From positions 1 through 36,076 of the IMG/VR virus record IMGVR_UViG_3300033148_010433: 36,076 nucleotides of DNA, one strand, 5' to 3'. The notes under the pieces are model-generated. The model was not told the origin of the DNA. It searched no databases and was given only the letters and a program-made list of their open reading frames with translations. Below are positions 6,192 through 33,871 of the stretch, piece after piece; within the stretch, counting starts at the first letter, position 1; each line of letters opens with the position of its first letter. This DNA is from a virus. A program made the position numbers and the translations under genes.

Positions 6192-6707
6192 CTATTCCCC
6201 CACCCAAGTATGACTACAAAGTGGATGGTCAGCTTCCCATTGGTCGAGCGAGCGCTGGTCAGTAAACTCTAACGGTCCCTCCGGTTCGCAGAATTTCTTA
6301 TACGCGCCATCGTCATTCGTGCCAATCAAGGCGCATGGTCGGATATTATTCGGATCGCCATCTGTAGGTTCCAAAAACGGGCACTCCAAGGAATAGCTGC
6401 TGCCGTTATTCTGTGGGCTGGTATCCTTGCAGCAGCCTTCGCCAGTGACCCAAACGTATGGGAACTTTTTGCCTCCGAGACGGTAGAACCCAACACGATT
6501 TTCAGGAGCCACGCCAATCTCATCACCAAGATTTCCGAACCCAAACATACCTAACTGCGGGCACAATTCATTTACGGCATCGTCCAGCGACCAATGCCGA
6601 AGCGCTTCCGGCCAATTACGAGGAAATGGATTTGCTTGGTTCGGGCTGCCATCAGCACCGCAACATTGGCCGCATCGGTTACAGGTACCTTGTCTCAGGA
6701 ATGCCAT
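6192..6707 (-). CDS. YkgJ-like cysteine-rich (zinc- or iron-chelating type) protein
   Basis: This 171-residue protein begins with GTCNRCGQCC (C-x2-C-x2-CC near residues 9-16), the signature of the YkgJ / UPF0153 putative Zn/Fe-chelating family. Further cysteines are at ELCPQ, GCCKD, LECPF, RPCALIG, KFCEPEG and PLCSH. The later CPF...CALIG...FCEPEG pattern also fits that family. Its role is unknown even in bacteria; metal binding is inferred. It lies 3 bases upstream of the repeat-fibre gene and 15 bases downstream of the secreted glycosidase, in a stretch poor in the G/C runs that mark the rest of the window, so recent acquisition is possible. Confidence 0.65.
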   Translation of the reverse strand: MAFLRQGTCNRCGQCCGADGSPNQANPFPRNWPEALRHWSLDDAVNELCPQLGMFGFGNLGDEIGVAPENRVGFYRLGGKKFPYVWVTGEGCCKDTSPQNNGSSYSLECPFLEPTDGDPNNIRPCALIGTNDDGAYKKFCEPEGPLEFTDQRSLDQWEADHPLCSHTWVGE

Positions 6708-6722
6708 CTATGCCGCCTCAAA

Positions 6723-7706: not shown

Positions 7707-7827
7707 AACCTCCGTTCATTTCAATATGCCTGTAAAGCCACATCAAACAGTCTCTATCCTTCGCGCTACCGGCTGTAGCTTCTTTCCTACTAGCCGTACA
7801 GTATATTCAACGTGTTAGGGGTTATCA

Positions 7828-8538
7828 TTACCCCTGCACGGTATCTGAGCCGTTTCCTGCGTCGTTCACTGATACGACACGATCCCCAGGGTTCGGGGAT
7901 GGGGTATCAGGTATTTCAAGGGGCGATCTTTCTACTGCTTCGAGAGCTTCCAGTATCGGTGAAATATCCCCGACAGTGATCTTGGCTTTGGGGTAAAATA
8001 CTTTGAACCACCCTTTCAGATGGGTGACAGCGGCATCAGACCAACCATACAGAACCACCTGATTAGTTTTCCATGCCCCTATCCCAGCATCGTCGGGGTT
8101 GAATCCCAGGGTATACCCCTTGTCTCTGGCTCCTACGAATAACGCTCGTAGGGGTTCCCCCACGACAGCTTCGTTCAGTAACCAAAAGACCCGTTTGCTC
8201 CGGTGAGCCACCTTCGCGCTATAGTCGTGGGGGGTTTCATCCGGTCGGGTTTGCTTGATGCGTAGCGTGTACCCATCAGGACGGATAATCTCAACCCTGG
8301 TACCAGGATATTTTTCCTCATAGAATTCTGATAGGCTATCCAACCTTTGAGGATTGGCTCCCAGGATACGCACGATTCGTTGTATCCGGTTACCCCCCAC
8401 CCCACCTTCGTGGGGATTGAACGCGGTCGTATAATGCCTGGGTAACTGCACCAGGAACATCGGCCACGCAATATCCTGGGGGATATCTGGGTCAATGTAG
8501 TTTACGTTCTTCTGGTATGCGATTCTTGGTTCTGTCAT
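7828..8538 (-). CDS. Tail-region protein with an internally duplicated unknown domain
   Basis: This 236-residue protein contains two copies of one domain. Residues about 35-84 (HYTTAFNPHEGGVG ... KYPGTRVEI) align with about 142-189 (GYTLGFNPDDAGIG ... FYPKAKITV), sharing YT-x2-FNP, G[VI]G, a hydrophobic strand, an amphipathic helix and YP. A proline-rich linker (PDTPSPNPGD) leads to one unit (VNDAGNGSD) of the repeat seen in the 927-residue fibre. No known family is recognised. It follows the baseplate/tail-tip gene, and a strong AGGAG site precedes the start. A perfect dispersed palindrome lies just upstream (8554-8567). Confidence 0.65.
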   Translation of the reverse strand: MTEPRIAYQKNVNYIDPDIPQDIAWPMFLVQLPRHYTTAFNPHEGGVGGNRIQRIVRILGANPQRLDSLSEFYEEKYPGTRVEIIRPDGYTLRIKQTRPDETPHDYSAKVAHRSKRVFWLLNEAVVGEPLRALFVGARDKGYTLGFNPDDAGIGAWKTNQVVLYGWSDAAVTHLKGWFKVFYPKAKITVGDISPILEALEAVERSPLEIPDTPSPNPGDRVVSVNDAGNGSDTVQG

Positions 8539-8553
8539 CGGGCTAACTCCTAT

Positions 8554-8567
8554 GGTGAAACTTCACC
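8554..8567. repeat. Dispersed palindrome copy (perfect), intergenic
   Basis: GGTGAA-AC-TTCACC followed by GATTAT. It fills the 31-base gap between the tail-tip gene stop and the start of the 236-residue gene, about 16 bases upstream of that ATG. Confidence 0.85.
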
Positions 8568-8569
8568 GA

Positions 8570-10213
8570 TTATCTGCCTAATATAGCGTTCTCTCTTAGT
8601 TTACGCTGCGCCATGAATACCGCAAGGTCATCAGGTAACCCTGTGGATATCGAAAGCTCTTGCTTGTCTGGGTTGTATGTCGTTGCTGTAATCAAGAATG
8701 TCAATCCAGCATCACTGACATCAGCCAAATCTTCCCGAAAGGTTGTTATCCTGATGCGGGTACCGGCCTTTACTTTTGATGCGGGTACCTCCCCATCTTC
8801 TCCCATCAGGTATCCTCTAACCTTGATAGGACCGGATACCATGAAACGAACATCCTTCTTTTGCGCCAGTATCCGTTTGCCGATGCTTAACGCGACAGAT
8901 GCCCCTGTAGTGCCAGCCTTTACGGTAAACTCCTTTTGCCCGTATAAAGAAATCGAATCAGTATCTTTCAACGCGGCATCGTCGTTGGGGGTAGTGATTT
9001 CAACGAAACTATCGTTTTCTGTAGTACGTTCTACGTAGACATAGTTGATAATATCATCGAAATCCTGGGATATCCGAAAGTCGGCTATCAAGTTCGGGTC
9101 GTCAATCCCAATCGTATATTCTGCGTCTCCAGAATCAAGAGATGGGTATTGAGCAAATTTTAGTACAGGGTTGCCGTCTCGGTTAGGGGATTCCTCGCTC
9201 CCCATCAGGGAGAACCCCCAGGGGTTGAAGCTAGAATCACCATGCGCGGCTACCCTGAGTAGGATATCGGCTACTGGCTCTGGTCCATCAGAAAAAAATG
9301 GTTCTAGCGTAAACGTGTTCGCGCTGATTAGCCCATCCCAAGAATCTATTTCAGAGAACAGCGCAATGATATCCCCGGCTATTGATTCGGGGGTGATGGT
9401 ACCTGTCTCGCTGTATACCATCAGGTTAGAAATCTGCATGTATATTTGATCGTCAGTTGACCCATTCTGGGGAGGGGTCTGGGTAGCATCGGAAACGAAT
9501 TCAAAGAAAGCGTATTTTGATGCGATACCCAGCGTAACATTCTTGCTCCCAGAACTGGTAGTGGTGACATTATCTTCCCCTGTGCCAGAGTAAGGGGTTC
9601 CTGCTCGTTTCATCGTGATGCGCCACGTCTGGGATGCCTCATCCATGTCGTAATTCCAGGTTATCCGTTTGACCGTCTCCCCATCGGGCATCACGTAATG
9701 AAATGTATGCCGGTCATACGTGTTGAATTCTTCTTTCTTTGGTACTACCCTGATACGATTGTGCCTGTCTATACTGAACTTGTCGGGGATAACCGCCACC
9801 GCACCACCAGACGCGAAGTACCAGACCTTCGCGCTCATCCTGTTATCAGCCCAACGCTTGTCCAGTGACCTTTTCTTTAGAAGGGCACCCCAGTATCCAA
9901 CTGCCTCAATGACCAGTGCCTGTTTAGCACCGGAGCCAAACTGGAAGCCGATGAAAACTATTTCTCCCTCCCAGACTTGGGTCATGCCGTTGGTTATTTC
10001 TACCCGTTGCCCCCCCCTCCAGGGGTGATTTCTTGTGATGTCAAGGGGAATAACTATTCTCGCGTTCCCATAGATCCCCCCAGGGTAGAAAGTCGAGTAC
10101 CGTGAAATGATCACATTATCCAGCAAGTCGTCATGGTCCGGCACGATGTCTACGGACAACCTGCTGTATATCTTTACCCGTAATTCGTTCTGGGGTATCT
10201 GGGAGCCACGCAT
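8570..10213 (-). CDS. Minor tail / tail-tip hub protein (Gp37-like)
   Basis: This is a 547-residue protein if started at ATG 10213, which overlaps the upstream stop (TAATG) and has a GGGGGG stretch 8-10 bases ahead. A longer start at 10228 has no ribosome site. The N-terminal part (VKIYSRLSVDIVPDHDDLLDNVIISRYSTFYPGG then GQRVEITNG and VWEGEIVFIG) matches the start of siphophage tail-tip hub proteins (Gp37-like / gp27 fold), where the first domain forms part of the central ring. A beta-rich insert (about 180-290) and further hub-like parts (GQKEFTVKAGTTGAS, KAGTRIRITTF) follow. It lies directly after the distal tail protein, the usual position of the hub. No peptidase motif is seen. Confidence 0.65.
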   Translation of the reverse strand: MRGSQIPQNELRVKIYSRLSVDIVPDHDDLLDNVIISRYSTFYPGGIYGNARIVIPLDITRNHPWRGGQRVEITNGMTQVWEGEIVFIGFQFGSGAKQALVIEAVGYWGALLKKRSLDKRWADNRMSAKVWYFASGGAVAVIPDKFSIDRHNRIRVVPKKEEFNTYDRHTFHYVMPDGETVKRITWNYDMDEASQTWRITMKRAGTPYSGTGEDNVTTTSSGSKNVTLGIASKYAFFEFVSDATQTPPQNGSTDDQIYMQISNLMVYSETGTITPESIAGDIIALFSEIDSWDGLISANTFTLEPFFSDGPEPVADILLRVAAHGDSSFNPWGFSLMGSEESPNRDGNPVLKFAQYPSLDSGDAEYTIGIDDPNLIADFRISQDFDDIINYVYVERTTENDSFVEITTPNDDAALKDTDSISLYGQKEFTVKAGTTGASVALSIGKRILAQKKDVRFMVSGPIKVRGYLMGEDGEVPASKVKAGTRIRITTFREDLADVSDAGLTFLITATTYNPDKQELSISTGLPDDLAVFMAQRKLRENAILGR

Positions 10214-12732
10214 TACATAACCCCCCATCTGGGACGGACAATGATGGGATCGAATTTCAGGGTATCAGTGATGGTCATCTCAGAAACATCGTCATTACCC
10301 ATTAAGACCCGTAGTTGGTTCAGCGTGTTGGGCAATAGATGAACCGGGTCGCCTTCCCTGGATATCTTGTCTCCCCATCCTCCGGTAGAATCATTTATCG
10401 CTCTTGCGTAATCCCCCGCTTTATAGACCATATCTTTGAAATCCCCACCCGCATCAGCAACCTTAAATTCTTCCATTGGACGAAACATAATGGCTGTAAA
10501 ATCTAACCAGTACGTCCTGGGGGTTACCTCTCCTGGTCGAGAATGGGAGAAGCCTAGCCCCATCAGGTAGGGGAATTTGCCTGGGGGTGCCAAGAAGCGG
10601 GGAATAATCATCGAATTAGATCGCAACAACCTGAACTGGGATGTTGTCGCCAGTAGAAATTGTCTGACTTTTCCAGTGTAGAAATTGTTGCCAAACAAGA
10701 ACCCAGGGGAGAACGCATATGCGTAGTTTACCGGCTCGGCAAACCTGTGAAACACGTAAAATTCTTTGCCTTCAAATTGTTGATAGTGGTCAACGATATC
10801 AACGGCTGTCCAGGTAGACCCTGATAGGCCAAGGGAAGCGGCCAGATATTCCCCCCCTGATGAGCCACTGTCAACCGTTCCCTGTCTCTCGTCATACAGG
10901 TATATTTCAGGGTCGATGTGATAGTCAAGTGTCAGGTTGGATAAATACATCCTCTTATAAAATGATGGTACCCGACCGAAGGTTAGGTTGTATGTTGTCA
11001 CCGCTGGGTATGAGCCAGGGATACCCCCCACCACGCACCAGTTGTCTCGGGTAGAATCATCGCAATTGTCTACAGTGGAATCACCGGCTTTCGTCCATAG
11101 CCAGGGAATAGGGGATATCTGGTCGCCCTCTCCTGCTACCTCAATCATAGCCAGGGCATCGGCTAATACCTGGGTGGCTGATAGGGAACGATCCCATATC
11201 GTCATGTCCAGTATCGTTGTCTCCAGGTTATCTGCTCCCAGGTAATCCTGACCGATTCCTACGGTGTCAAATAAAGCAGCGGCATACGCACTATTAGACG
11301 CTAACAATACCCCATCAGAGTAGATGGCTTTGAGGGTGTCATCCCAGGTAAAATGTAGAATTAGAACATCGCCGTAATCCCACGAAAAGGCAACCCCCAT
11401 GAAGTCGGCACCAGTTTGAAATACCAGCTCTCCAGCAGATGTGTCGTAATAGATTTCTTGATAGGTAGAACCGACATAGAGAGACATGAGACATCTATCT
11501 TCTGCGGCAGCGACAAGATCGGACGAAGAATAGTTCATCCGCAGCACCAGTCTCGCGCTACCAGCAGGTTTGCCATAATCCCCAGATGTCAAACGCAAAT
11601 CTCCAACAGCACGGCTACCCACCGAGTTGTTTACGGTACCTGCCCAGGAGCATCCCAGAGCATCACCCCAGATGAGGGGGGTGGGATGCAAGGTATTGGC
11701 TGTGTCGCTATCCTCTACCTGGAAACCGTCAATGTATAATCGTCGGTTGTAGCCTACCCTGATACCGACAGTGACGGATGCGCCAGAGCCAGAGAAATCC
11801 TGGTAGACCCGATACCAACCATTTGCTACGGCCACGATATTCGGGGTAGTGGCTACCCCATCGAATATCAGATCGCAATCGGACGTAGTAACGATCCCCC
11901 TATCCGGTCGCTTGACATAGACAGACAGCCGGTTATTGCCGTTGCGCTCAGTGATTGTGCAGGTATAGCGATTGTTCACTATAGATGCGTTGTAGCCAGT
12001 TACGATCATGGACGTATTTCCGAACGCCACGAAATCAGTATCCCTGTTTATAATATCGTTCAGGGTGCTTGTGGCTGTCCACCCTTGTTCTGGGGTATCG
12101 GGAAACATGAATACTGGATTAGGTATTCTGTTCGTCCCTGCTTTCGGGTTCTGTATCCCCCTAGAAAACCCCAGGGGCAACCCGATAGTATCTTCGATAA
12201 TCCCCCCACCTGCTTCGGCTACAAGCTGGTCGATGCCCTCAATAAATGGTTGCAGCTTCAACTGAATCTTGTAATTCACCGTCCGATCCCTGATGGTGCC
12301 CTTCCCCCAGGATTTCATCACTTTCGGAACCTGTCCATGGACGATTTCAAACTTGTTAGCTGCTCCGTATTGTCCCCAGACAGGATCGAAGGGGATTGAA
12401 TTGTCGGGCTTGTACTCGAATATCAGTGGACGATCTGGGGTAACCCCTGCCTGGGATAACCAGGATTCTATCACCCTGGCCGCCTTCCTTATTTCGGAGT
12501 TCTTTGTGCCCCGTATCTGAATTGGTAGGGGGTAATCACTTAGGACAGCCCGTTCGTCTATTAGGGTACCCCCACCCCACCTATTGCCAGATACGCCAGA
12601 GCCTATCAGGTGGTCGAATGTAGTACCAGGGGGGTAGAAAATATCGTCTAGCCGATAGGGATCTGCGTTCAAATCTAGGGTGCGATCCCCTACCCGAAAC
12701 CTAGCAACAACTGTCTCGTAGCCTGTCGTCAT
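10213..12732 (-). CDS. Distal tail protein with carbohydrate-binding and LamG-like domains
   Basis: The protein has 839 residues. Residues 1-190 resemble a distal tail (Dit-like) domain, with TTFDHLIGSGVSGNRWGGGTLIDERAVLSDYPLPI. Residues about 205-345 look like a carbohydrate-binding beta-sandwich (NRIPNPVFMFPDTPEQGW ... YNRRLYIDGFQVEDSD). Residues about 385-535 form a concanavalin/LamG-like lectin domain (RLVLRMNYSSSD, HFTWDDTLKAIYSDGVLLASN, LDMTIWDRSLSATQV). The C-terminal 300 residues are beta-rich and end in KFDPIIVRPRWGVM. It follows the tape measure gene by 2 bases. Host glycan binding at the tail tip is likely (inferred from the lectin folds). Confidence 0.7.
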   Translation of the reverse strand: MTTGYETVVARFRVGDRTLDLNADPYRLDDIFYPPGTTFDHLIGSGVSGNRWGGGTLIDERAVLSDYPLPIQIRGTKNSEIRKAARVIESWLSQAGVTPDRPLIFEYKPDNSIPFDPVWGQYGAANKFEIVHGQVPKVMKSWGKGTIRDRTVNYKIQLKLQPFIEGIDQLVAEAGGGIIEDTIGLPLGFSRGIQNPKAGTNRIPNPVFMFPDTPEQGWTATSTLNDIINRDTDFVAFGNTSMIVTGYNASIVNNRYTCTITERNGNNRLSVYVKRPDRGIVTTSDCDLIFDGVATTPNIVAVANGWYRVYQDFSGSGASVTVGIRVGYNRRLYIDGFQVEDSDTANTLHPTPLIWGDALGCSWAGTVNNSVGSRAVGDLRLTSGDYGKPAGSARLVLRMNYSSSDLVAAAEDRCLMSLYVGSTYQEIYYDTSAGELVFQTGADFMGVAFSWDYGDVLILHFTWDDTLKAIYSDGVLLASNSAYAAALFDTVGIGQDYLGADNLETTILDMTIWDRSLSATQVLADALAMIEVAGEGDQISPIPWLWTKAGDSTVDNCDDSTRDNWCVVGGIPGSYPAVTTYNLTFGRVPSFYKRMYLSNLTLDYHIDPEIYLYDERQGTVDSGSSGGEYLAASLGLSGSTWTAVDIVDHYQQFEGKEFYVFHRFAEPVNYAYAFSPGFLFGNNFYTGKVRQFLLATTSQFRLLRSNSMIIPRFLAPPGKFPYLMGLGFSHSRPGEVTPRTYWLDFTAIMFRPMEEFKVADAGGDFKDMVYKAGDYARAINDSTGGWGDKISREGDPVHLLPNTLNQLRVLMGNDDVSEMTITDTLKFDPIIVRPRWGVM

Positions 12733-12734
12733 TC

Positions 12735-15689
12735 TTATACTCCAGCGGCTTGGTGTAACCTAGCCAATTCCGCAATCTTCGTAGCCACTTCTTCGGCTAT
12801 TTCATCTGGGGATGCGGTTGCGCCTTCGATGGTTATATACGCCTCTATTATCACTGGTGAACTTTCACCGATATCCCCAGCATACCCCCCATTACCCAGG
12901 GGTTCGATGTCGGTGATCGCACTACCCACTACGGATGCTGCGGCATCCCTGATTTCATCGGCACCGGATAGGATGCCAAGTGCGATCCCCTGTGCAAACG
13001 GATACCCGATTTCACGCATCGGTTTCTTGGCTGGGGATGATGCCTCCGTCTCTGCTCTTGCGGCGGCCATCGCATCCCTGACAACCTGTGCGGCTGCGGC
13101 GGCTATCTCGTAGGATTTCGATAGGATACCCACCCCAATACCAGAAGCGATGTAACCACCAGCGGTTTCAAATCCAGTCCGGTAACTTCTGATAGTGGAC
13201 TGTGCCTCTGTCAATCCTGTGGAGATGTTAGTATTGACCGATGTCATAGCCGTATCGGTAGCGGTGGCTATCCCTGTCATGGTTGTATCGGTTTCACCCA
13301 GGATGGTACCCATCTCTGTGGTGGTCATGGTAGACATCGTTGTCATCCCTGTATCGAAGGCAGTAACGGTCAACCCCATGTTCTCGGTAGCACCGTCTTT
13401 GATTAGGATAAATTGCTCCTGCATAACGGTGGCTGTGGTGACCGTTTCATCGTCTACGATCCCCATCTTGTCGATATACCGTTGCTGTTCACCAGTCAAG
13501 GCTACGACCGATTCCCCGGTACCCTGGTTGGCTACGTCCATTGCGTTGTTCGCTTCCACAATCCTACCAGCGGTATCCGCAGCAAGGTCGAGGTCTTGGA
13601 TGAAACCGGATAGTTCTGTCCTCATATCGGCTACTGATATATTCCCGGCTACGTAGGATTGTGCCAGGGTATTGATCTTCTCCTGTATCAGAGCAGATTT
13701 CAAAGCAGCTTCTGCGGCTTCCTCACTGTATACCCCTAGAGCCTGTCCCAGTACTGCCATCCCAACCGCACCCACCCCCGCATCACTGGCAGCTTTCAGC
13801 ATCGCTTGGTTCAGGGTATCCTGGTTCATGGTACCAGTGAGGACAGCGGGTTCACCTTCTTCGATGACGTTATAAAAGAAGTTGGCTCCGTCTGCTCCCT
13901 GGACAGCGGCAGCAAAGTAATCCCCCACCCTAGCGGTTGCATCAGCAATAGCGGTAGCGTAATCTATTGCGGCTTGGGTAGCTTCTTCGCGAGCGATTTT
14001 TTCATCTTCCATCGCTTGATTCGCCTGTCGTACCATCGCTGCGTTTCTGTTGATACGCATGGCTTCCTCATCAGATTGCAACATCCTACGTTGCATACTA
14101 TCAGCCATGTCAACGTTCGTCTCAAATAGCCCCTCCAGTATTTCATCCTGGGTGAGCATTACTTTGTTGTTCGCCTCTATTGCTTCGGTCGTGTCATCGA
14201 CATTACCAGCAAACGCAGCATACTGTTTATTCAGAGCATCAGCTCTGATATCTGCTTGCTCCTGTAGGTCAATGGCTGCTCGTAGTTCTGTAATCTGTCC
14301 GGTCCACCCATCCTCTAACAACCCCAGGGCAATATGCAATCTGGCTATCGACCTTTCTTGGGATAGGTTACCAGCCATATGATCAAGCCCCTCATCTGTT
14401 ACGGCTTTGATCAAGAGTTTAGAAAGTGCCTGTTCTTTGTTGTATCCCCTAACAGCATCGGATGAATCTTGAAGGCTACTAGAGGTATCAGTGATCTGTC
14501 CCCGGTACTCGTCCAGGGATGATGCAACTGTCTTATTGATTTTCGTGGCCGACATATTCTCGACTTCCCATTCCAGGATAGAAATCTTGGCATCGAGAAA
14601 CTTTCTTCGTAATGGCTCCAGAGATTCGCCCATCAGTATCTTGAAAGCGGCGGCTAGTGATGCCGCCCGTTCTTCCTGCCGTAGTAGGGCTTCGTTCATC
14701 ACATCGGCAGCTTCTGTAGTAGCCCCTTCTGCGTTCTCCGCGTTCTGTAATTCTGTAGTGAATTTTTCTGCACCACTACCAGTTAGTTGCAATGCCCCTT
14801 GTGCGGCCATGATACTGCCGAACAGGTCCATCATGGCTACCCCCTGGTCGGCCGCAGCCTGTTCCATCAGGATCATAGCATCCTGTAGGTTACCCCCCTG
14901 TTCGATGAATTGTGCGAACCCCACCCCCGCAACCTGCTTAAAAGCATCTGATGTCTTGGTCCCTTCTACCGCTAATTCCTGTAGGATTGCGCGTATCTGA
15001 GTAGCTGCCTGTCTGGTGGGGGTACCCTGTGCTGTCATCGTGGCTATCGCGGCTGTTAGGTTACCGAACTCAAGCCCCAGGGATGCGGCAACAGGTACCA
15101 TCTGGAACAGTCGATCAGACATCTCTTTGAAGGTGGTCTTACCACCCTTGACAGCGGCAAACATCACATCACTGGCTTCCGCTGCTGAGATAACTCCTGG
15201 TCCGTAAGCGTTAACGACAGTGGTCAACCCATCAACGGCTGTGGACAAATCAGTTACCCCAGCCAGGGCTGTTTCGTGGGCTGTCTCCAAGAACTCGAAC
15301 ACGTTCTCCTGGGGGACACCGGCTGATATCGCTTGGTACAAAGCAGGGACAATCTCGTCTGTCATCCTACCCATTGAAGTAGATAACCGGAGAACATCTG
15401 CTTCCATCCCAACCATCGCCACTTCGGATATCCCAGGGAGCAAGGTGTAGACTTCTTTGATCCCTTCCTCAAACTGCTCAAAGGCTTGGATTGACTCGGC
15501 CATCAATTTCTTGATAGCACCAGCCGCCTTCATGATCCCCCCCACTAAGCCGATGCCAATAGCAACCTTCCCAATCTGGGATACCATGTCACCGAATTTA
15601 TCGGTTTTCTTAGTGGACCGATCAAGCGATTTCTCGTAATGCTCGGTATCACCCTGTATCTTGACAGCAAGTTTTGCTAGGGTTGTCAC
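12735..15689 (-). CDS. Tail tape measure protein
   Basis: This 984-residue protein is alanine- and helix-rich. The N-terminal coil (KIQGDTEHYEKSLDRSTKKTDKF) is followed by a hydrophobic segment (VAIGIGLVGGIMKAAGAI). The TP901-type tape measure core (PhageMin_Tail family) comes next: AFEQFEEGIKEVYTLLPG, YQAISAGVP, TTVVNAYG and GNLTAAIATMTAQGTP. The C-terminus has the typical duplicated IASGIGVGI / FAQGIALGILSGADEI with ASSPAKKPMREIG. At about 1.5 angstrom per residue the tail would be near 150 nm, suggesting a siphovirus. It follows the G/GT chaperone frame by one base. A perfect dispersed palindrome lies near its 3-prime end, read as GESSP. Confidence 0.92.
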   Translation of the reverse strand: MTTLAKLAVKIQGDTEHYEKSLDRSTKKTDKFGDMVSQIGKVAIGIGLVGGIMKAAGAIKKLMAESIQAFEQFEEGIKEVYTLLPGISEVAMVGMEADVLRLSTSMGRMTDEIVPALYQAISAGVPQENVFEFLETAHETALAGVTDLSTAVDGLTTVVNAYGPGVISAAEASDVMFAAVKGGKTTFKEMSDRLFQMVPVAASLGLEFGNLTAAIATMTAQGTPTRQAATQIRAILQELAVEGTKTSDAFKQVAGVGFAQFIEQGGNLQDAMILMEQAAADQGVAMMDLFGSIMAAQGALQLTGSGAEKFTTELQNAENAEGATTEAADVMNEALLRQEERAASLAAAFKILMGESLEPLRRKFLDAKISILEWEVENMSATKINKTVASSLDEYRGQITDTSSSLQDSSDAVRGYNKEQALSKLLIKAVTDEGLDHMAGNLSQERSIARLHIALGLLEDGWTGQITELRAAIDLQEQADIRADALNKQYAAFAGNVDDTTEAIEANNKVMLTQDEILEGLFETNVDMADSMQRRMLQSDEEAMRINRNAAMVRQANQAMEDEKIAREEATQAAIDYATAIADATARVGDYFAAAVQGADGANFFYNVIEEGEPAVLTGTMNQDTLNQAMLKAASDAGVGAVGMAVLGQALGVYSEEAAEAALKSALIQEKINTLAQSYVAGNISVADMRTELSGFIQDLDLAADTAGRIVEANNAMDVANQGTGESVVALTGEQQRYIDKMGIVDDETVTTATVMQEQFILIKDGATENMGLTVTAFDTGMTTMSTMTTTEMGTILGETDTTMTGIATATDTAMTSVNTNISTGLTEAQSTIRSYRTGFETAGGYIASGIGVGILSKSYEIAAAAAQVVRDAMAAARAETEASSPAKKPMREIGYPFAQGIALGILSGADEIRDAAASVVGSAITDIEPLGNGGYAGDIGESSPVIIEAYITIEGATASPDEIAEEVATKIAELARLHQAAGV
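12856..12869. repeat. Dispersed palindrome copy (perfect), in tape measure gene
   Basis: GGTGAA-CT-TTCACC followed by GATATC; read as Gly-Glu-Ser-Ser-Pro. Confidence 0.82.
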
Positions 15690-27257: not shown

Positions 27258-27271
27258 GGTGAAAGTTCACC
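27258..27271. repeat. Dispersed palindrome copy (perfect), at folE/terS junction
   Basis: GGTGAA-AG-TTCACC followed by GAATAC. It straddles the end of folE and the 38-base gap before terS. Confidence 0.85.
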
Positions 27272-27887
27272 GAATACCCGAAGGGGATACCAGGGATAGA
27301 AACTCGTGTCGGGCTTCCGGCTGATCCCTGAATGTCCCAAGCATAACGGATGTTGACATCATTCCTTCGGTCTTGATCCCCCTCATCTGCATACAAGTAT
27401 GTTCGCCCCTACCCAGTACCGCAACCCCAGACGCGCCGGTGATCTTTTCAATCTGGTTGGCTATGTCGTGGACCAGTTGCTCCTGGGTCTGTAGCCGATG
27501 AGCCATCAGGTGGGCTATCCTTGCAAACTTCGATAACCCCAGCACTTTGTCTGTGGCGATGTACCCTACCGACACGTCACAGTAGAATGGTAACAGGTGA
27601 TGTTCACAAAGGGACCAGACGCGCATATCGGATACCACTACCATCTGGTCTGTAGTCATTGACTCAAATGTCGTTGAGTGGTTGGTGTCTACATACCCGA
27701 TAAACTCCGACCAGAACCTAGCCACCCTTCGGGGGGTATCCTTCAACCCTGGTCGGGCTTCGTCGCCATGCCGTACTTCACCGATGGCTATGAGCAACTG
27801 TTCTATTAGCCGTTCTATCGTTGGCTGATGTACTTGTGAACCTGGATGCTCAGTCTCCAATTCCGCGTCATCGCTGTTTCGATACAT
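27267..27887 (-). CDS. folE: GTP cyclohydrolase I
   Basis: This 206-residue protein has all main features of FolE: SLCEHHLLPF (zinc Cys and His), GYIATDKVLGLSKFARI, QTQEQLVHDIANQI and GEHTCMQMRG (third zinc Cys). It converts GTP to 7,8-dihydroneopterin triphosphate, the first step of preQ0 synthesis. GGAGAAGG lies 10 bases before the ATG, which supports this start although it overlaps queE by 73 bases. It is the last gene of the modification operon before the packaging genes. Confidence 0.93.
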   Translation of the reverse strand: MYRNSDDAELETEHPGSQVHQPTIERLIEQLLIAIGEVRHGDEARPGLKDTPRRVARFWSEFIGYVDTNHSTTFESMTTDQMVVVSDMRVWSLCEHHLLPFYCDVSVGYIATDKVLGLSKFARIAHLMAHRLQTQEQLVHDIANQIEKITGASGVAVLGRGEHTCMQMRGIKTEGMMSTSVMLGTFRDQPEARHEFLSLVSPSGIR

Positions 27888-28504
27888 AATTTCGTTGCCT
27901 TCTCCGATTGACTAATTGGCTGTACGCTGACAACCCCCCCATCCTTCCTTCCGTAACGAGCAAGCATCGTAACCAGTTTGTCAACATCTTCTTGCTTACC
28001 GATTACCTGCTTTATCTCATCTGCTTGTGCCACGACAATCGGTAGCACCCGTTTCCCTCCCGGCATGTCGTGCTTGGGTGATACCGTAACCCAGTCAAAT
28101 CCTGCGTTCAGGTGGCCCTCTGCTGTACCCGATGTTTCAATGGCTACCTTGAAACCGTTGCGGTGCAAGGCTGATACTAACGGCTTCAATCTTTGTAGCG
28201 ATGGTTCTCCCCCAGACACCAAGACCCATCGAATGTTAGGATATTTTCTGTAGAGGTGGGCTGCCAGTTCGGAGACATTGACGGATGCGTTCAGCGCGTT
28301 TGTCCCCATGATCATTCGCCAATCGGCTACAGTACCGTCACCATCTTGCGCCCATGTTTCCTTCGTATCGCACCAGGGACACCCGACATCACAACCTTGC
28401 AAGCGAACCATGATCATGGGTTGTCCAGTCATGCTACCTTCGCCCTGAATACAAGGGTAAATGTCGTTCAAAACTATCGTCGTTCCTACTTCGTTTTTTG
28501 TCAT
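27815..28504 (-). CDS. queE: 7-carboxy-7-deazaguanine synthase
   Basis: This 229-residue radical-SAM enzyme has YPCIQGEGSMTGQP near the start, RLQGCDVGCPWCDTKETW with the CxxxCxxC cluster motif, VLVSGGEPSLQ, and a C-terminal VSVQPIS. It rearranges 6-carboxytetrahydropterin to 7-carboxy-7-deazaguanine. The start (ATG 28504) overlaps the stop of a 26-codon leader frame (ATGA), and the 3-prime end overlaps folE by 73 bases. Confidence 0.93.
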   Translation of the reverse strand: MTKNEVGTTIVLNDIYPCIQGEGSMTGQPMIMVRLQGCDVGCPWCDTKETWAQDGDGTVADWRMIMGTNALNASVNVSELAAHLYRKYPNIRWVLVSGGEPSLQRLKPLVSALHRNGFKVAIETSGTAEGHLNAGFDWVTVSPKHDMPGGKRVLPIVVAQADEIKQVIGKQEDVDKLVTMLARYGRKDGGVVSVQPISQSEKATKLCIETAMTRNWRLSIQVHKYISQR

Positions 28505-28581
28505 ATAATCCTCAACCTTAAAAGAAACTCTGGTATAATCTGGTACATATAGATATGCTTCGATATCTCCGTTAGCCCCAT
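28501..28581 (-). CDS. 26-residue leader ORF overlapping queE
   Basis: ATG 28581 has GAGGGG 6 bases ahead. The 26 codons (begins MGLTEISKHI, ends LLRLRII) finish in TGA overlapping the queE ATG (ATGA). Ribosomes finishing here would be placed on the queE start, so this may be a coupling leader peptide. The sequence has no known family. It may also be chance, although a strong ribosome site and exact overlap are both present. Confidence 0.4.
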   Translation of the reverse strand: MGLTEISKHIYMYQIIPEFLLRLRII

Positions 28582-28621
28582 CAGATTCCCCTCTTACGGG
28601 AAATGACGAGACACCTATACC

Positions 28622-28723
28622 CTAACCCCTGGAGAACGTGCCCGTCACTTTTGATTTTATAGCTTCTGTCACTTCTGTACCCCTTAGCACCTTCCAATCT
28701 GCCTGTGGGTCAGACGTAAGCAT
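28622..28723 (-). CDS. Possible 33-residue ORF in the queE-queD gap
   Basis: ATG 28723, 33 codons (starts MLTSDPQADWKVLRGTEVTE), stop TAG at 28622. AGAGAGG lies about 10 bases upstream. It is between queD and the queE leader. Amino-acid composition is protein-like but there is no family; low confidence. Confidence 0.25.
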   Translation of the reverse strand: MLTSDPQADWKVLRGTEVTEAIKSKVTGTFSRG

Positions 28724-28792
28724 GGGCTAGGAACCTCTCTAAGAGTGGTCGGTATGTGTCAAAAAGAGCTGTCTACGATCTTCGTAATTGGC

Positions 28793-29191
28793 TTAGTCAA
28801 ACACCTGTAAAATCTCAGGTTTCGTATTAGGAGTGTAGACAGCAGTAACCTTCGGTGTCTCCGATACCCGCACAGCGACAAGGTATTGATCCCACCAGAA
28901 GTTGACTTGACACACGGTAAAAATATACTCTGCCAAGACCTCGGCTGTAGTTGGTAATCCTTCCATCACATCATTCAAATGACGATGGTCTAGCGTGTTG
29001 TCTAGCCACTCCTTGAAGGGTGAAAGTTCACCGTAATCGACCACGAACCCATGTTCATCCAACACGTCACCAGCAAGTACCAGGGTGACAACATAATTGT
29101 GCCCATGAAGGCGACCGCATTGGTGTCCCTCTGGCAATCCTTCGATAATATGGCTGGCTGAAAAATGAAACTCTTTGCTAATGTAGTACAT
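28793..29191 (-). CDS. queD: 6-carboxytetrahydropterin synthase
   Basis: This 132-residue protein has the QueD/PTPS signature: FHFSASH (H14, zinc), HQCGRLHGHNY (C25 catalytic, H29 and H31 zinc), VVDYGELS and LDHRHLND (catalytic D68/H69). It converts dihydroneopterin triphosphate to 6-carboxytetrahydropterin for QueE. The perfect palindrome at 29019-29032 encodes the YGELSP of the conserved motif. It follows the methyltransferase by 1 base. Confidence 0.93.
   Translation of the reverse strand: MYYISKEFHFSASHIIEGLPEGHQCGRLHGHNYVVTLVLAGDVLDEHGFVVDYGELSPFKEWLDNTLDHRHLNDVMEGLPTTAEVLAEYIFTVCQVNFWWDQYLVAVRVSETPKVTAVYTPNTKPEILQVFD
29019..29032. repeat. Dispersed palindrome copy (perfect), in queD
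   Basis: GGTGAA-AG-TTCACC followed by GTAATC; read as Gly-Glu-Leu-Ser-Pro within the conserved DYGELS motif. Confidence 0.82.
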
Positions 29192-29192
29192 T

Positions 29193-29783
29193 TTATTTTT
29201 CCCTTTCGATCATAGCATAGTTACAAATGCCTTCTGTTGACAATCCCCTTTTCATCCTGAATAAACCGTCCTGGTAATGACTCCGATGAAACTTCGCGGA
29301 GGATCCGAATAACAACCCGAAATCGGTTGACGACAACTCTTTGAGATGATAAGGATTCAAGTCTCCCTTGAAAATCACGACATCCCCCAGGTGCGTTGGT
29401 CCATTCTTGGAGATACTGCCGACAACGATGGTACCCCCCTTTCGTGTCACCCTGGTTAGTTCGGAGACAACCCGCTGGTGATCCTCTACATGCTCTATAG
29501 TCTCAAAGCATAGGGTTACATCTACCGATTCATCGGGGAGGGGGATATCCAGCACGTCTCCCTCTATCACCTTCTCCTCTGGGGATGGCCTGATATCCAT
29601 GCTTGTCACATACTCGAAATGTTTCTCCAGTATCAGTCGTTGCATGTTGTCTCCGGCTGCGATATCGAGAACGCTCTTGCTCTTGTCGCCAAGCAATTCC
29701 CCGTAATAACGATAGGGGTGCATAAGCATCTCCAGTATCTCCCAGGGTGCGTTATCTGGGTTGGCCCTTTCAGGTGTTTTCAT
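29193..29783 (-). CDS. SAM-dependent methyltransferase (class I)
   Basis: This 196-residue protein has a class I fold: VLDIAAGDN (motif I, SAM binding), VTSMDIRPS (motif II acidic), GDVLDIPLPDESVDVTLCFETIEHVED (motif IV region, typical of UbiE/MerR-type small-molecule methyltransferases), then VTRKGGTIVVGS. The substrate is not evident. It is in a tight operon with the glycosyltransferase (4-base ATGA overlap) and queD (1 base). Methylation of a modified base or of a precursor, or a surface glycan, are possible; sequence alone does not decide. Confidence 0.8.
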   Translation of the reverse strand: MKTPERANPDNAPWEILEMLMHPYRYYGELLGDKSKSVLDIAAGDNMQRLILEKHFEYVTSMDIRPSPEEKVIEGDVLDIPLPDESVDVTLCFETIEHVEDHQRVVSELTRVTRKGGTIVVGSISKNGPTHLGDVVIFKGDLNPYHLKELSSTDFGLLFGSSAKFHRSHYQDGLFRMKRGLSTEGICNYAMIEREK

Positions 29784-30547
29784 TTGCTTACCTCATAACT
29801 GGCTTCCATCATGCTCTCCAGGTCTACCTCTAGCATCTTCATTGTCACCTTATGTAACCCCCATTTCTCATGGGAGTAATTGCCATAATGATAAGCATAT
29901 ACGTCATGCAGAACCAATCCCCTACCAAGTAACAGGCCAATCACTGCATCGCATCCCCCCCAGGTCATTTGCTGTATCTTATCGGCTACACTCTTGTAGC
30001 TGTCTGTCCTAATTGCGAAACAGGTACCACCAAGCCACTTTGTTGGTACATTTTCACCGATATCGAATACCCGTAGCCAATCAGGATGTACATCTCTCAA
30101 TGCCTGCTGTACCCTGGGATCGGCCCTGTCTACCCTATCCCAGATTTCAGTATGACCTGGAATGTTGTTCTCGGTTAGATTCTTAGCAAATCGTATCACT
30201 GGTAATACCCACTGATTCCGCGTTGCCTCATAAGCCAATTTCTCAAGCCCCCCATTGGGTAGCACAACCGCATCATCGTCTAGGTTGACTACCACAGGAT
30301 ATGCTGATTGTGCTGCCTGAAAATGGGACTGGCCCAGGGTTTCTGGATTTTGCTTTTCCACGATAATTTTACAACCCAATTCTGAGAGGGTGTCTAACAG
30401 GTAACGGTCTTGATGTAGCACCGGCCATCGTCGGGTAACTATCCGAAGATTGAACGGCGCATGTTGGAGCAACCCTGCCAATACCCCAGTCATGTTCTGC
30501 CCTCTAGTGGGGATTACCACTTCAAAGTCTTTTTTACTATAGCTCAT
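29780..30547 (-). CDS. GT-A-type glycosyltransferase
   Basis: This 255-residue protein starts at ATG 30547, where AAGGA lies 7 bases upstream and the start overlaps the queC stop (ATGA). A longer start at 30700 lacks support. It has FEVVIPTRGQNMTGVLAGLL, NLRIVTRRWPVLHQDRYLLD and VVVNLDDDAVV (DxD-type metal and nucleotide-sugar motif), then WLGGTCFAIRTDSYKSV and a final acidic helix. This is a GT2-like fold. Its placement inside the deazaguanine operon suggests it may glycosylate the modified base (inferred). An alternative is glycan modification. The degenerate palindrome at 30045-30058 lies inside it. Confidence 0.75.
   Translation of the reverse strand: MSYSKKDFEVVIPTRGQNMTGVLAGLLQHAPFNLRIVTRRWPVLHQDRYLLDTLSELGCKIIVEKQNPETLGQSHFQAAQSAYPVVVNLDDDAVVLPNGGLEKLAYEATRNQWVLPVIRFAKNLTENNIPGHTEIWDRVDRADPRVQQALRDVHPDWLRVFDIGENVPTKWLGGTCFAIRTDSYKSVADKIQQMTWGGCDAVIGLLLGRGLVLHDVYAYHYGNYSHEKWGLHKVTMKMLEVDLESMMEASYEVSK
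30045..30058. repeat. Degenerate palindrome copy in the glycosyltransferase gene
   Basis: GGTACA-TT-TTCACC, two mismatches, followed by GATATC; read as GENVP. Confidence 0.4.
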
Positions 30548-31371
30548 AACACGTCCTTTCTTTCTGATATCCTCTGCCTTCTGATCGCTGCTGCAGCATA
30601 GATGTTGTTCACCAGGATACCCGGCCATTCGGTAACCCTGGAGGGTATCAAGTGTTTCATCATCGCATCGCGCAACCTCCTGGGTTGAACAACTTCCCAT
30701 GACCAGGGCTGTTCAAGATGTGGCTCGTGTATACCGTTCAGCGACATAGCCACCCACCTACGAAAACAAGCCATGCACCGTCCACAACCAATGCATCCGT
30801 TTCGTTGGGCTTCTCCTGGCTGATAGCAACTGCTGGTAATCAGGAGCATTGGCACCTCATGGGGATACAGTTCGAGAAACTTTTTGACCAAGTGCGTTTT
30901 GCTCCAGTTCCTGTAGGGGGATACCACCTCAACCTTGCTACCATGCAGGTAGGTTAGTAATCGGCTGGTGTCACGGTGAAACTTCCCCGACTTATCCTTG
31001 ACGCTTTCGCCAAGCAACCCCCCCAGGATAACTTGAATGGGGTCTCCCATCTTCTTGTTTTTCCGTGTCCTCATACCCAGGATATGCAAGTAACCGGCTT
31101 GGGCTAGTATCAGGTTACGCAGGGGGATGTATCCGTCATCATGCTCAAGATCACCCATGAACCAGTTCGTGTCATTGGTAACGTTCAGGTGAATACCCAG
31201 GTGACTGTATGCTTTCCGCTGGGACATGATAGATTTTATTTCGTGGGGCTGATACCCATGTCCAAGCTCTACGTATAAAGCAGGTGGACACCCCAGTAAC
31301 CTCCACATGATCAGACTGTCTAGCCCCCCGCTATATAATTGTATCCTGGTATGATTCTTTGTTTTTTTCAT
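30544..31371 (-). CDS. queC: 7-cyano-7-deazaguanine synthase (QueC-like)
   Basis: This 275-residue protein starts at ATG 31371 (ATGA overlap with the upstream stop); a GTG start at 31419 is less likely. The N-terminal PP-loop is YSGGLDSLIMW, which binds ATP. The zinc site is C-x10-C-x2-C-x2-C-x2-C (SSCYQPGEAQRNGCIGCGRC and MAC), extended relative to the usual QueC motif. It activates 7-carboxy-7-deazaguanine to preQ0. It is longer than most QueC (about 220-240) and has a basic C-terminus. It is transcribed with the glycosyltransferase. Confidence 0.85.
   Translation of the reverse strand: MKKTKNHTRIQLYSGGLDSLIMWRLLGCPPALYVELGHGYQPHEIKSIMSQRKAYSHLGIHLNVTNDTNWFMGDLEHDDGYIPLRNLILAQAGYLHILGMRTRKNKKMGDPIQVILGGLLGESVKDKSGKFHRDTSRLLTYLHGSKVEVVSPYRNWSKTHLVKKFLELYPHEVPMLLITSSCYQPGEAQRNGCIGCGRCMACFRRWVAMSLNGIHEPHLEQPWSWEVVQPRRLRDAMMKHLIPSRVTEWPGILVNNIYAAAAIRRQRISERKDVL
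30975..30988. repeat. Near-perfect palindrome copy in queC
   Basis: GGTGAA-AC-TTCCCC, one mismatch, followed by GACTTA. Confidence 0.6.
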
Positions 31372-31601
31372 GGTCGTGTCTGATGGGTTAGCCAATCTAT
31401 AATGACGTGGCTTGTCCACCCCAGTAGCCAGATGATAACCAGCCCCCTTCTACCATGCGTGAATCGGTGAAGTTTTACCAGGGTATGATCTTCTCCCAAC
31501 CATTCGCTTCGCCAGCCAAAGAACATCAGGAAGATGTCGGGTAGTATCGCACCCACCCCACCCACTAAAGCCCCGACAATAAAATGCCTGTCCTCTCTCA
31601 T
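31368..31601 (-). CDS. Small membrane protein, YdjM-like fragment
   Basis: This 77-residue protein has hydrophobic segments at about 7-30 (FIVGALVGGVGAILPDIFLMFF) and 53-66 (LVIIWLLGWTSHVI). The motifs PDI, LHRFTHGRRG and SHVIIDWLTH match the YdjM/DUF457 'membrane-bound metal-dependent hydrolase' family, where His and Asp bind metal. It is much shorter than the family (usually over 150 residues), so it may be a minimal member. GGAG lies 7 bases upstream of the ATG. It sits between the 3D-domain-like gene and queC with an ATGA overlap. Confidence 0.6.
   Translation of the reverse strand: MREDRHFIVGALVGGVGAILPDIFLMFFGWRSEWLGEDHTLVKLHRFTHGRRGLVIIWLLGWTSHVIIDWLTHQTRP
31466..31479. repeat. Near-perfect palindrome copy in the membrane protein gene
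   Basis: GGTGAA-GT-TTTACC, one mismatch. Confidence 0.55.
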
Positions 31602-31611
31602 GCTGTTTCTC

Positions 31612-32040
31612 CTAACTATCCCAGGATACAGACCAGTCCTGTATCAGCCAATAAGCCCACTCGGGTGGGTTGTCTGCGTCCCACATGAAATCGAAGTAGA
31701 CAACGGTCTGTTCGTAATAGGGTGACCACCCCACGACGATTGCTCCTCCGGTATCGACACATTCCATCGTCTCGTCAATGTCGTGAAAGGTAATCGTAGC
31801 CCCAAGCAATTCCATCGGACATGCCCCAGATGTGAAGTACATCCCAGGGGTCAATGGTCCGGTGGCTACGGTCGTACAATCCCCATCGCAGTTGATCCCC
31901 CCATCGTCTGGGTCGTAGATCGAAAGTACCGCTGGGTAATCAGTGATAACAGGTTCGGGATCATACGGTATCGGAAACGACATCAGTATCAGCAACATGG
32001 TCGATAATCGTCTCGCTACCGTCCGTAGCCTCCTGCCCAT
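31612..32040 (-). CDS. Secreted 3D-domain-like protein
   Basis: This is a 142-residue protein from ATG 32040 (start uncertain; it may be 32094 or 31983). The N-terminus (RRLRTVARRLSTMLLILMSFPIP) looks like a signal peptide. The centre has INCDGDCTTVATG, GACPMELLGATITFHDI, ECVDTGGAIVVG and a final VVYFDFMWDA, which resembles the 3D (Asp-Asp-Asp) or RlpA-type double-psi barrel that acts on or binds peptidoglycan. It overlaps the end of dpdA by about 80 bases. It may help entry or lysis; it is an unexpected member of this operon. Confidence 0.55.
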   Translation of the reverse strand: MGRRLRTVARRLSTMLLILMSFPIPYDPEPVITDYPAVLSIYDPDDGGINCDGDCTTVATGPLTPGMYFTSGACPMELLGATITFHDIDETMECVDTGGAIVVGWSPYYEQTVVYFDFMWDADNPPEWAYWLIQDWSVSWDS

Positions 32041-32908
32041 TGGACGATGCGGGGGTGGTTGGTATGTTAGGATGCTTAATGTCAATCGGTCCATACATCT
32101 TCTCCAGATATTGCTCGGCTAACGTGTGCGATCTAGACGATATTAAGCATAACTGGATGCGTTTTGCTTTTCCTTTGTCTTGGTATACCCGATGGTCAAA
32201 GCCTAATGCTCGGATAGCGGTGCCATGCTTCGACCAGAGTTGCTTGTTACCTATCCTGATGCGCCGTAATTCAGCCCTGTGCGGGTTCCAGATAGGTACA
32301 GTCCCATACCTGAAACCACTACCCCACCCAGAGGTGTCGATACTGTACCAGGGGAACGCTTTCAGTACCTTCCAGTTTGCCATGCCGAACCCATGATAAA
32401 CTACAGGCTTGCCCATAGCCATCTGATGCGCTTTGGCTAGGTATCGCCACATGCTCCTGCTACCTGATTGCGTGTGACCAACCATCCCCCCTAGCGCGAC
32501 ATACGGGTAATCGGTGATGAAATCACGCAGCACCGACCAGGGTTCACCACCATGAAATACTGGTACAGGTTTCAACCCCATCCCTTCCAGTATCCGCTGG
32601 TTCTTTAGCCCCTCTTTTACATCCCCCTTCACGTCCAGGTTGGCATAGTGGGTAAAGATATGTCCCCACTTCTGTAGCCATTCTCCGTAGGCGTGTACGG
32701 TAACATTCACCCCCAGACTGTGAACGGATACCGCACCAGAATCAGCGAAGGTATCGGTATCTCTACCGATGCGGTCCATAACCGCATCCATGTCGCGCTT
32801 CTGGAAGTAGAAGTAAGACATCAGCACCCTGGGGGTACCGTAACCCCTAACCCCTTCCGTTGCGCTTTCCAGGTTGGCTACGTTCGTATCGGCTAGATAG
32901 ATTCTCAT
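31961..32908 (-). CDS. dpdA: DpdA-like DNA 7-deazaguanine transglycosylase
   Basis: This 315-residue TIM-barrel-type protein has DTFADSGAVSV (D56, counterpart of the TGT active-site DSG), HYANLDVKGD (D92), PVFHGGEP and YHGFGMANWKVLKAFPWYSIDTSGWGSGF (conserved barrel motifs), as in phage DpdA proteins. The tRNA-TGT zinc motif (CxCxxC) is absent. DpdA exchanges guanine in DNA for preQ0 or a derivative. The ATG overlaps the stop of the 56-residue gene (ATGA). Complete preQ0 genes lie downstream in the same direction. The C-terminal 40 residues are low-complexity. Confidence 0.88.
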   Translation of the reverse strand: MRIYLADTNVANLESATEGVRGYGTPRVLMSYFYFQKRDMDAVMDRIGRDTDTFADSGAVSVHSLGVNVTVHAYGEWLQKWGHIFTHYANLDVKGDVKEGLKNQRILEGMGLKPVPVFHGGEPWSVLRDFITDYPYVALGGMVGHTQSGSRSMWRYLAKAHQMAMGKPVVYHGFGMANWKVLKAFPWYSIDTSGWGSGFRYGTVPIWNPHRAELRRIRIGNKQLWSKHGTAIRALGFDHRVYQDKGKAKRIQLCLISSRSHTLAEQYLEKMYGPIDIKHPNIPTTPASSNGQEATDGSETIIDHVADTDVVSDTV

Positions 32909-33075
32909 TGGGCAGGTTTTCTCCAGACCAGGGATAGGTTATGTCGTCGTCGTCGTTGACTGGGGGTTTCTTTGGCTATCATCTCTCGGTAATGCTCGCG
33001 ACAGTACCAGTTAGCCAACGACAGCAGTTGCTCCTTCCTCAACTCCAGGTTGTTCCTCTGGCTGTAGTTGCTCAT
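32905..33075 (-). CDS. Small basic protein (56 residues) before dpdA
   Basis: ATG 33075, stop at 32905. GGAGGA lies 6 bases upstream. The 56-residue protein begins MSNYSQRNNLELRKEQLLSL and contains ANWYCREHYREMIAKE and RRRRHNLSLVW. It is basic and mostly helical. It overlaps the end of the ParB-like gene by 65 bases and the dpdA start by 4 (ATGA), so it is well supported as a real gene. Nucleic-acid binding or a DpdA partner is a guess from charge and position. Confidence 0.7.
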   Translation of the reverse strand: MSNYSQRNNLELRKEQLLSLANWYCREHYREMIAKETPSQRRRRHNLSLVWRKPAQ

Positions 33076-33871
33076 CTGTTCTCCTCCGGTTTAAGTTTAC
33101 GTAGTCGTGGGCTATGCTCAACATCTGGTGAAATTTCGCCGCTTCTGACAGATGCTTGGGTAGCATATCCAGTACCTCAGCGAATAGTTGGAATGTTTCG
33201 GGGGGTACGGCTACCCGAATCACCGGCCAAAAGTCCTCATCCTCTGGTTCCCCGTATTCTTCAAGTAATGCGTCTGGGTCGGGTGGGTCAAAGTCAATCC
33301 CATGAGCCTGGGATAGTTCCTCGACCATCAGTCTCAAGGGATCATGTTCCAGCTTCAATTGGGAGACAAGATCGGATAGGATATCCAGGTTCGTACCAGC
33401 CATCGCTGATATCGGGTCTAGCATCGTTAGCAACTGCTTTTCTTCCTGGGGGGTTAGCTGCCGTATGATCGCTGGTATCTTCTCCCCTGGGTACCGTTCG
33501 GCTACCTCTCGTCTACCGTGACCATCGACATAGGTGGGGATTGCTTCGTCGGCACCCCACCCATTTTCAACCTTGCGATCATTCACCAGTACCACCCCCG
33601 ACCACCCGACACCCTCCTTCCCATTAGAACCATAGATCAGAGATTCCAGAGCATCTAACTGATAGTCGTCATGGGTACGCCATTGCAGGGGGTTTTCTTG
33701 TGCGCTGTCTGGGTCAATCCAGACAACCTGTAGTTCGATATCCTCTTTCAGCGTCTCCAGGTAGGGGACGAGGTCATCCCTGTTCTCCTTCTTGGCTTGT
33801 CTGATGAATTTTTCGATTAGGGCATATTGCTGTAGGTCATCTGCTGGGGTTGTGCTGTCTTTATCGCTCAT
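33011..33871 (-). CDS. ParB-like N-terminal domain protein
   Basis: This 286-residue protein carries the ParB/Srx-type core: SAQENPLQWRTHDDYQLDALE, GWSGVVLVNDRK, YVDGHGRREVAERYPGEKIPAII and LTPQEEKQLLTMLD. The central D-G-H-G-R is the ParB nucleotide/catalytic motif. No HTH DNA-binding module is seen, so it is closer to phage ParB-like nuclease or DNA-modification proteins than to a partition factor. The end is acidic. The start (ATG 33871) follows CGGAGA by 1 base and TACAAT by 6, a layout compatible with leaderless transcription. It opens the modification operon. Confidence 0.8.
   Translation of the reverse strand: MSDKDSTTPADDLQQYALIEKFIRQAKKENRDDLVPYLETLKEDIELQVVWIDPDSAQENPLQWRTHDDYQLDALESLIYGSNGKEGVGWSGVVLVNDRKVENGWGADEAIPTYVDGHGRREVAERYPGEKIPAIIRQLTPQEEKQLLTMLDPISAMAGTNLDILSDLVSQLKLEHDPLRLMVEELSQAHGIDFDPPDPDALLEEYGEPEDEDFWPVIRVAVPPETFQLFAEVLDMLPKHLSEAAKFHQMLSIAHDYVNLNRRRTDEQLQPEEQPGVEEGATAVVG
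33127..33140. repeat. Near-perfect palindrome copy in the ParB-like gene
   Basis: GGTGAA-AT-TTCGCC, one mismatch. Confidence 0.55.

Follow-up and report, generated by a model that had tools for sequence, protein, structure and literature searches.

A candidate sugar- and methyl-transfer cassette between queC and queD in a viral 7-deazaguanine DNA-modification operon

The virus record IMGVR_UViG_3300033148_010433, analysed here over its whole length of 36,076 bases (hereafter, the window), carries tail, capsid, protease, portal and terminase genes followed by a dpd operon, a gene cluster predicted to produce a 7-deazaguanine base and to place it in DNA. The record is probably a fragment of an incomplete genome. 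Two further genes lie between queC and queD, encoding a candidate GT-A-type glycosyltransferase (GT; 29780–30547) and a class I S-adenosylmethionine (SAM)-dependent methyltransferase (MT; 29193–29783). Comparison with more than 110 dpd loci, fetched for this purpose and labelled with L-numbers (L002 etc.), indicates that the pair is an insertion into a conserved gene block, and we give about even chances to the proposal that one or both enzymes decorate the inserted base.

The operon is encoded entirely on the minus strand, in the order, from position 33871 downwards, ParB-like protein, DpdA, a small open reading frame (ORF), PLPC77, QueC, GT, MT, QueD, a 288-base gap, QueE and FolE. In domain searches, FolE, QueE, QueD and MT were unambiguous, QueC and DpdA matched their families as divergent members, and GT gave a weak match. 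FolE (GTP cyclohydrolase I; 27267–27887) matches PF01227 (9.7e-54), contains the zinc-site motifs CEHH and EHTC and shows 51–55% identity to FolE of related phages. The radical SAM enzyme QueE (7-carboxy-7-deazaguanine synthase; 27815–28504), with its CxxxCxxC motif, scores 221.5 bits against TIGR04322 (8e-66), exceeding the 200-bit cut-off. QueD (6-carboxytetrahydropterin synthase; 28793–29191) matches PF01242 (PTPS; 7.5e-30), carries a CGRLHGHNY motif and reaches 87.9 bits against TIGR03367 (4e-25), just under the cut-off of 89.25. The QueC-like 7-cyano-7-deazaguanine (preQ0) synthase (30544–31371) matches PF06508 (1.3e-7), retains an SGGLDS P-loop and a Cx11CxxCxxC motif, and is 38% identical to the syntenic QueC of L002; its match to TIGR00364 (1.3e-4) falls under the NCBIfam cut-off, and QatC matched equally. 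DpdA (31961–32908), a DNA-guanine transglycosylase resembling tRNA-guanine transglycosylase (TGT), matches PHROG 887, 'queuine tRNA-ribosyltransferase' (2.3e-42), contains DSGA and IDTSGW motifs, retains residues conserved in the DpdA alignment and reaches at best 34–39% against phage DpdA genes in tblastn searches. Thus, FolE, QueD, QueE and QueC are encoded together with a DpdA homolog, the composition of a preQ0-type DpdA cluster. The preQ0-to-DNA pathway proposed in an earlier note on this DNA is supported by homology, by the intact motifs and by synteny with mycobacteriophage-type dpd clusters. The queE and folE genes overlap by 73 bases (27815–27887), and an identical 73-base overlap is present in the relative L011 (10779–10851).

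The order ParB-DpdA-QueC-QueD-QueE-FolE, followed by terminase, is found in the metagenomic phage L002 and in mycobacteriophage StAugustine; it occurs without terminase in Rhodococcus phage Finch and Arthrobacter phage Sonali, and Bipper and Nadezda contain the same block without QueC. In the window, the ParB-like gene (33011–33871, minus strand; PHROG ParB, 8.5e-7) lies immediately upstream of dpdA. The ParB-DpdA order also appears in L002, L009–L012 and clusters of mycobacteriophages and Rhodococcus phages, an arrangement that marks ParB as a partner retained alongside DpdA within this lineage. GT and MT are absent from the examined clusters of the full order. Since in L002, the closest syntenic relative, the queC stop and the queD start overlap as TGATG, the GT and MT pair is an insertion between these two genes, and the coupling of neighbouring genes was preserved at either end of it. 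The gene content, the order, the junctions and the lack of this cassette in syntenic relatives are directly visible in these sequences.

The methyltransferase assignment is solid on sequence grounds, as the protein contains a Methyltransf_11 domain (PF08241, 8.8e-16), SAM motif I (DIAAGD) and an MDIR motif, and it matches class I methyltransferases in the PDB. Its weak matches include sugar O-methyltransferases (the D-glucose O-methyltransferase 6uv6, and MftM), and no homologs were recovered in the phage records and IMG/VR scans. The assignment of GT as a highly divergent GT-A-like glycosyltransferase is tentative, because it is based on a sub-threshold match to the Pfam GT2 family (PF00535; E=0.029, 14.8 bits versus a curated cut-off of 23.3) and on a DDD motif. 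The DxD-type motif, NLDDDAV at residue 90, falls within the Pfam alignment (57–133), at the expected place, and a PTRG motif is present at the N-terminus. No match was found in NCBIfam, PHROG or the PDB. Three weak matches to GT among approximately 1,190 genomes of three phyla proved to be spurious frames, with no GT-like gene at those places.

Unrelated sugar- and methyl-transfer genes recur among some 85 other dpd loci. A GT4 family (PF00534, with GT4 matches in the PDB and the hallmark EKxP and QETxG...EA motifs) is encoded within the dpd operons of seven metagenomic phages (L034, L038, L044, L045, L082, L085 and L116). It overlaps or abuts DpdA in L034, L038 and L082 (the overlap in the last two being 4 bases) and in two cultured phages, Xanthomonas phage X1, where GT4 lies one base upstream of DpdA, and Acidovorax phage ACP17, where it overlaps a homolog of the X1 DpdA (4e-55) by 4 bases. 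A GT4 homolog also lies within the 7-deazaguanine cluster of Sinorhizobium phage Phosso, adjoins a Gat-QueC-like protein and a deacetylase in Xanthomonas phage PhiXhv-15, and, in the Pseudomonas PA5oct/Paride group, stands beside a 540-aa protein that carries a TGT-like motif (ADSGGFQ) but found no confirmation as DpdA in profile comparisons. The GT4 genes of the cultured jumbo phages (X1, ACP17, PA5oct/Paride group and Phosso) are located at L137:6941–8101, L139:6860–7888, L135:7001–8062 and L138:6848–7939. The window GT is not homologous to this family (hhalign probability 0.3%). QueC is present in none of the seven metagenomic GT4-bearing dpd loci versus 42 of 65 loci without GT4 (Fisher p=0.0014, kinship ignored); this distribution suggests 7-carboxy-7-deazaguanine (CDG) as the handle in the GT4-bearing loci, and since the window has QueC, its design differs from theirs. 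A SPASM radical SAM gene directly precedes GT4 in two different dpd operons (L082:4812–6832 and L116:4759–6938), and its product could make an acceptor for the sugar.

Unrelated methyltransferases are likewise found within the dpd operons of L009, L011, L062, L023, L026, L028 and L051, including a family of 271–299 aa encoded directly after DpdA, between DpdA and QueD (or QueF), in L009, L011 and L062. Across the surveyed loci, the presence of a methyltransferase showed no association with the absence of QueC. Locus L009 (9085–10849), which has no FolE, QueD or QueE, reads DpdA, methyltransferase, QueF-like protein and Vut_1/QueT transporter, and may be a salvage-type cluster that imports a 7-deazaguanine precursor and makes methylated preQ1. 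In L011, a close relative of the window by QueD, QueE and FolE, the region 6199–14965 holds a GT4, four methyltransferases, a sulfotransferase and a true GT2 around the dpd genes, all co-directional, possibly forming a larger hypermodification or glycan island; profile comparison revealed no similarity between this GT2 and the window GT. A myo-inositol-1-phosphate synthase gene adjoins DpdA/QueC at L012:9671–10753 and L022:6857–8032. Genes for NeuB, a cytidylyltransferase, an acetyltransferase and an aminotransferase, resembling a nonulosonic-acid pathway, lie just upstream of ParB-DpdA at L062:551–4964, and L101:673–3682 looks alike.

The junctions within the cassette are exactly as the earlier note had described them: queC and GT overlap by 4 bases (ATGA), GT and MT overlap in the same manner (ATGA, 4 bases), and a single base separates MT from queD. 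The argument drawn from them, that tight coupling implies a shared pathway, was its weakest part. By our gene calls, 15 of the 42 junctions in the window fall within -4 to +4 bases, so that such spacing is a general habit of this phage and weak evidence for a common pathway; as proof of one, we rejected it. The placement of all these genes in the same operon is probable rather than established because of the 288 bases that separate queD from queE, a gap in which no terminator-like site was predicted on the minus strand. Neither a tRNA nor a riboswitch was found in the operon or in this gap.

Taken together, these data are best explained by the following model, in which activities, substrate, product and benefit are all predicted. 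By homology, FolE, QueD, QueE and QueC would convert GTP into preQ0 (or CDG/amide precursors), and DpdA would exchange guanine in phage DNA for preQ0 or a precursor. The inserted two-gene cassette, comprising the divergent GT-A-like GT and the small class I MT, would be a tailoring unit whose products most likely attach a methyl group, a sugar or both to the 7-deazaguanine, either ahead of its incorporation into DNA or afterwards; alternatively, MT could methylate the added sugar. The resulting bulkier guanine replacement would block more restriction enzymes.

Several observations weigh against tailoring of the base. The nitrile of preQ0 is no acceptor for a sugar or a methyl group, with no obvious hydroxyl or amine to carry a sugar, and neither QueF nor an amidotransferase nor a hydroxylase was recognised among the scanned genes of the 36-kb fragment, several short ORFs of which were unscanned; a sugar or methyl group might be accepted by the amide intermediate of QueC, by the exocyclic amine or by a group supplied by an enzyme whose gene lies elsewhere. 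Relatives of GT are absent from phage and plasmid records, IMG/VR viral contigs, the 26 full virus records that contain related loci and the approximately 1,190 genomes, and the GT and MT families of the window are both absent from all of the more than 110 dpd loci searched. AlphaFold models of GT were poor, with predicted local distance difference test (pLDDT) values of 40 and 34, too low for a fold search. The parallel with the metagenomic GT4 loci is loose, as these have no QueC while the window has it, and the junction spacing is unspecific. The profile matches inside versus outside dpd operons (387 kb versus 985 kb) number 6 versus 2 for GT4, which speaks for tailoring, and 7 versus 5 for methyltransferases, but these counts are small, were partly seeded from inside matches and ignore kinship. 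A Pfam control covered 129 flanking ORFs, with 25 of 58 families among the matches listed. The proposal that GT and MT act on the base, advanced in the earlier note, gains new support, stronger than that from spacing, from the clean insertion into a conserved operon and the recurrence of unrelated GT4s and methyltransferases in other dpd operons, several of them beside DpdA, but it has to contend with a GT without relatives, a preQ0 without an obvious acceptor and the lack of a recognised acceptor-making enzyme. We regard the two sides as roughly balanced.

A possible, though somewhat doubtful, alternative is that GT and MT are cargo (a moron) that landed in a well-expressed operon and act on something other than the base, for example a glycan of the host surface or of the virion, or a small molecule, the phage DNA containing plain dPreQ0. 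This agrees with the absence of the two genes from all other dpd clusters, with the abundance of close junctions throughout the phage, with the weak sugar O-methyltransferase matches of MT, and with the GC contents of GT (0.47) and QueD (0.46), which are below that of the window (0.51). Some sugar genes whose products are unlikely to have DNA as their substrate, namely those for NeuB, the cytidylyltransferase and the aminotransferase, do lie beside the dpd clusters of L062 and L101. However, the insertion falls precisely at the queC–queD junction with start/stop coupling kept on both sides, and unrelated glycosyltransferases and methyltransferases have independently entered the dpd operons of other phages, often touching DpdA.

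That only one of the two genes, most likely MT, acts on the base, GT being cargo or not a glycosyltransferase at all, appears improbable. The contrast between a solid MT assignment and a weak GT assignment would favour such a division, as would the unrelated methyltransferases in seven other dpd operons and the DpdA-methyltransferase-QueF-QueT layout of L009, which fits methylated preQ1. Nevertheless, GT and MT overlap and arrived together, preQ0 does not have the amine that a preQ1 methylase needs, and no QueF was seen in the fragment. We consider it very improbable that the QueC-like protein does something other than synthesise preQ0, with the operon making another handle (CDG, an amide or an ester) for GT and MT. 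The sub-threshold NCBIfam score and the equal QatC match leave room for this, and many relatives do without QueC, including all seven complete metagenomic GT4 loci, where CDG may be the inserted base; yet the P-loop and the four-cysteine motif are intact, and the syntenic homolog in L002 belongs to an otherwise standard preQ0 cluster.

As for the remaining genes of the window, the gene set and coordinates given in the earlier note for the modification genes were borne out, all of them on the minus strand, but its gene list omitted the two ORFs between DpdA and QueC. The first (approximately 31612–31995, start uncertain, minus strand) is an ORF call without a family match that overlaps DpdA. 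The second, PLPC77 (31368–31601, minus strand), is a 77-aa membrane ORF that overlaps queC by 4 bases, carries conserved histidines and is weakly YdjM/Zn-PLPC-like (PF00882, E=8e-4, below the cut-off); its homologs occupy the same place between DpdA and QueC in L002 (5e-14) and L050 (7e-16). Outside the operon, a tail-associated protein (3405–6188) contains many degenerate repeats of approximately 15–25 aa around VSDVGSGAD, and an ORF among the tail/lysis genes (1753–2196) has a putative PAS-like sensor domain, judged by eye.

DNA modification of the preQ0 type by FolE, QueD, QueE, QueC and DpdA has been described in phages Rosebush and CAjan (Hutinet et al. 2019, PMC6884629). The window encodes the same five enzymes, and actinobacterial phages and L002 share the order ParB-DpdA-QueC-QueD-QueE-FolE, whereas GT and MT between queC and queD set the window apart. 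Methylated and formylated preQ1, among other derivatives, have reportedly been found in phage DNA. Those systems are said to employ extra tailoring enzymes, including a methyltransferase, on 7-deazaguanine; compared by description only, they differ from the window fragment, in which no QueF/preQ1 route was recognised and which does have a GT candidate. In T4, hydroxymethylcytosine in the phage DNA is glucosylated by GT-B enzymes. There too, a sugar on an already modified base protects DNA, but the base and the glycosyltransferase family are different, and the acceptor hydroxyl is missing in the window pathway. Mannosyl- and galactosyl-queuosine are likewise glycosylated 7-deazaguanines, although they occur in tRNA rather than DNA and carry the sugar on the queuosine cyclopentenediol, which the window pathway does not make. 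The dpd-associated GT4 family (L082, L116, X1, ACP17, PA5oct and Phosso) resembles the window in having a glycosyltransferase encoded inside a 7-deazaguanine cluster, often abutting DpdA, but it is of the GT-B type and most of its clusters are without QueC. No glycosyltransferase acting in a DpdA cluster was found described in the open-access papers searched, and its novelty is provisional because Cui et al. 2023 and preprints were outside that search.

The hypermodifications of phage DNA determine which of the restriction, Type IV and CRISPR systems are effective, and they are a source of DNA-labelling enzymes. Those 7-deazaguanine bases that are known in phages, namely preQ0, preQ1, archaeosine and simple derivatives, are small. 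We tentatively propose, at less than even confidence, that phages possess a real, hitherto undescribed class of hypermodified DNA bearing glycosylated 7-deazaguanine. This class would have had several separate origins, by way of a GT2-like/MT cassette in the window and of DpdA-coupled GT4 enzymes, in some cases accompanied by a radical SAM enzyme, in jumbo phage isolates (including X1, ACP17 and the PA5oct/Paride group) in which QueC is mostly missing and CDG rather than preQ0 is perhaps the handle. With GT4 genes near DpdA in phages that are in culture, the question is already amenable to testing. If the proposal is true, a sugar on 7-deazaguanine would constitute a new chemical class of DNA modification, with stronger shielding of the phage genome.

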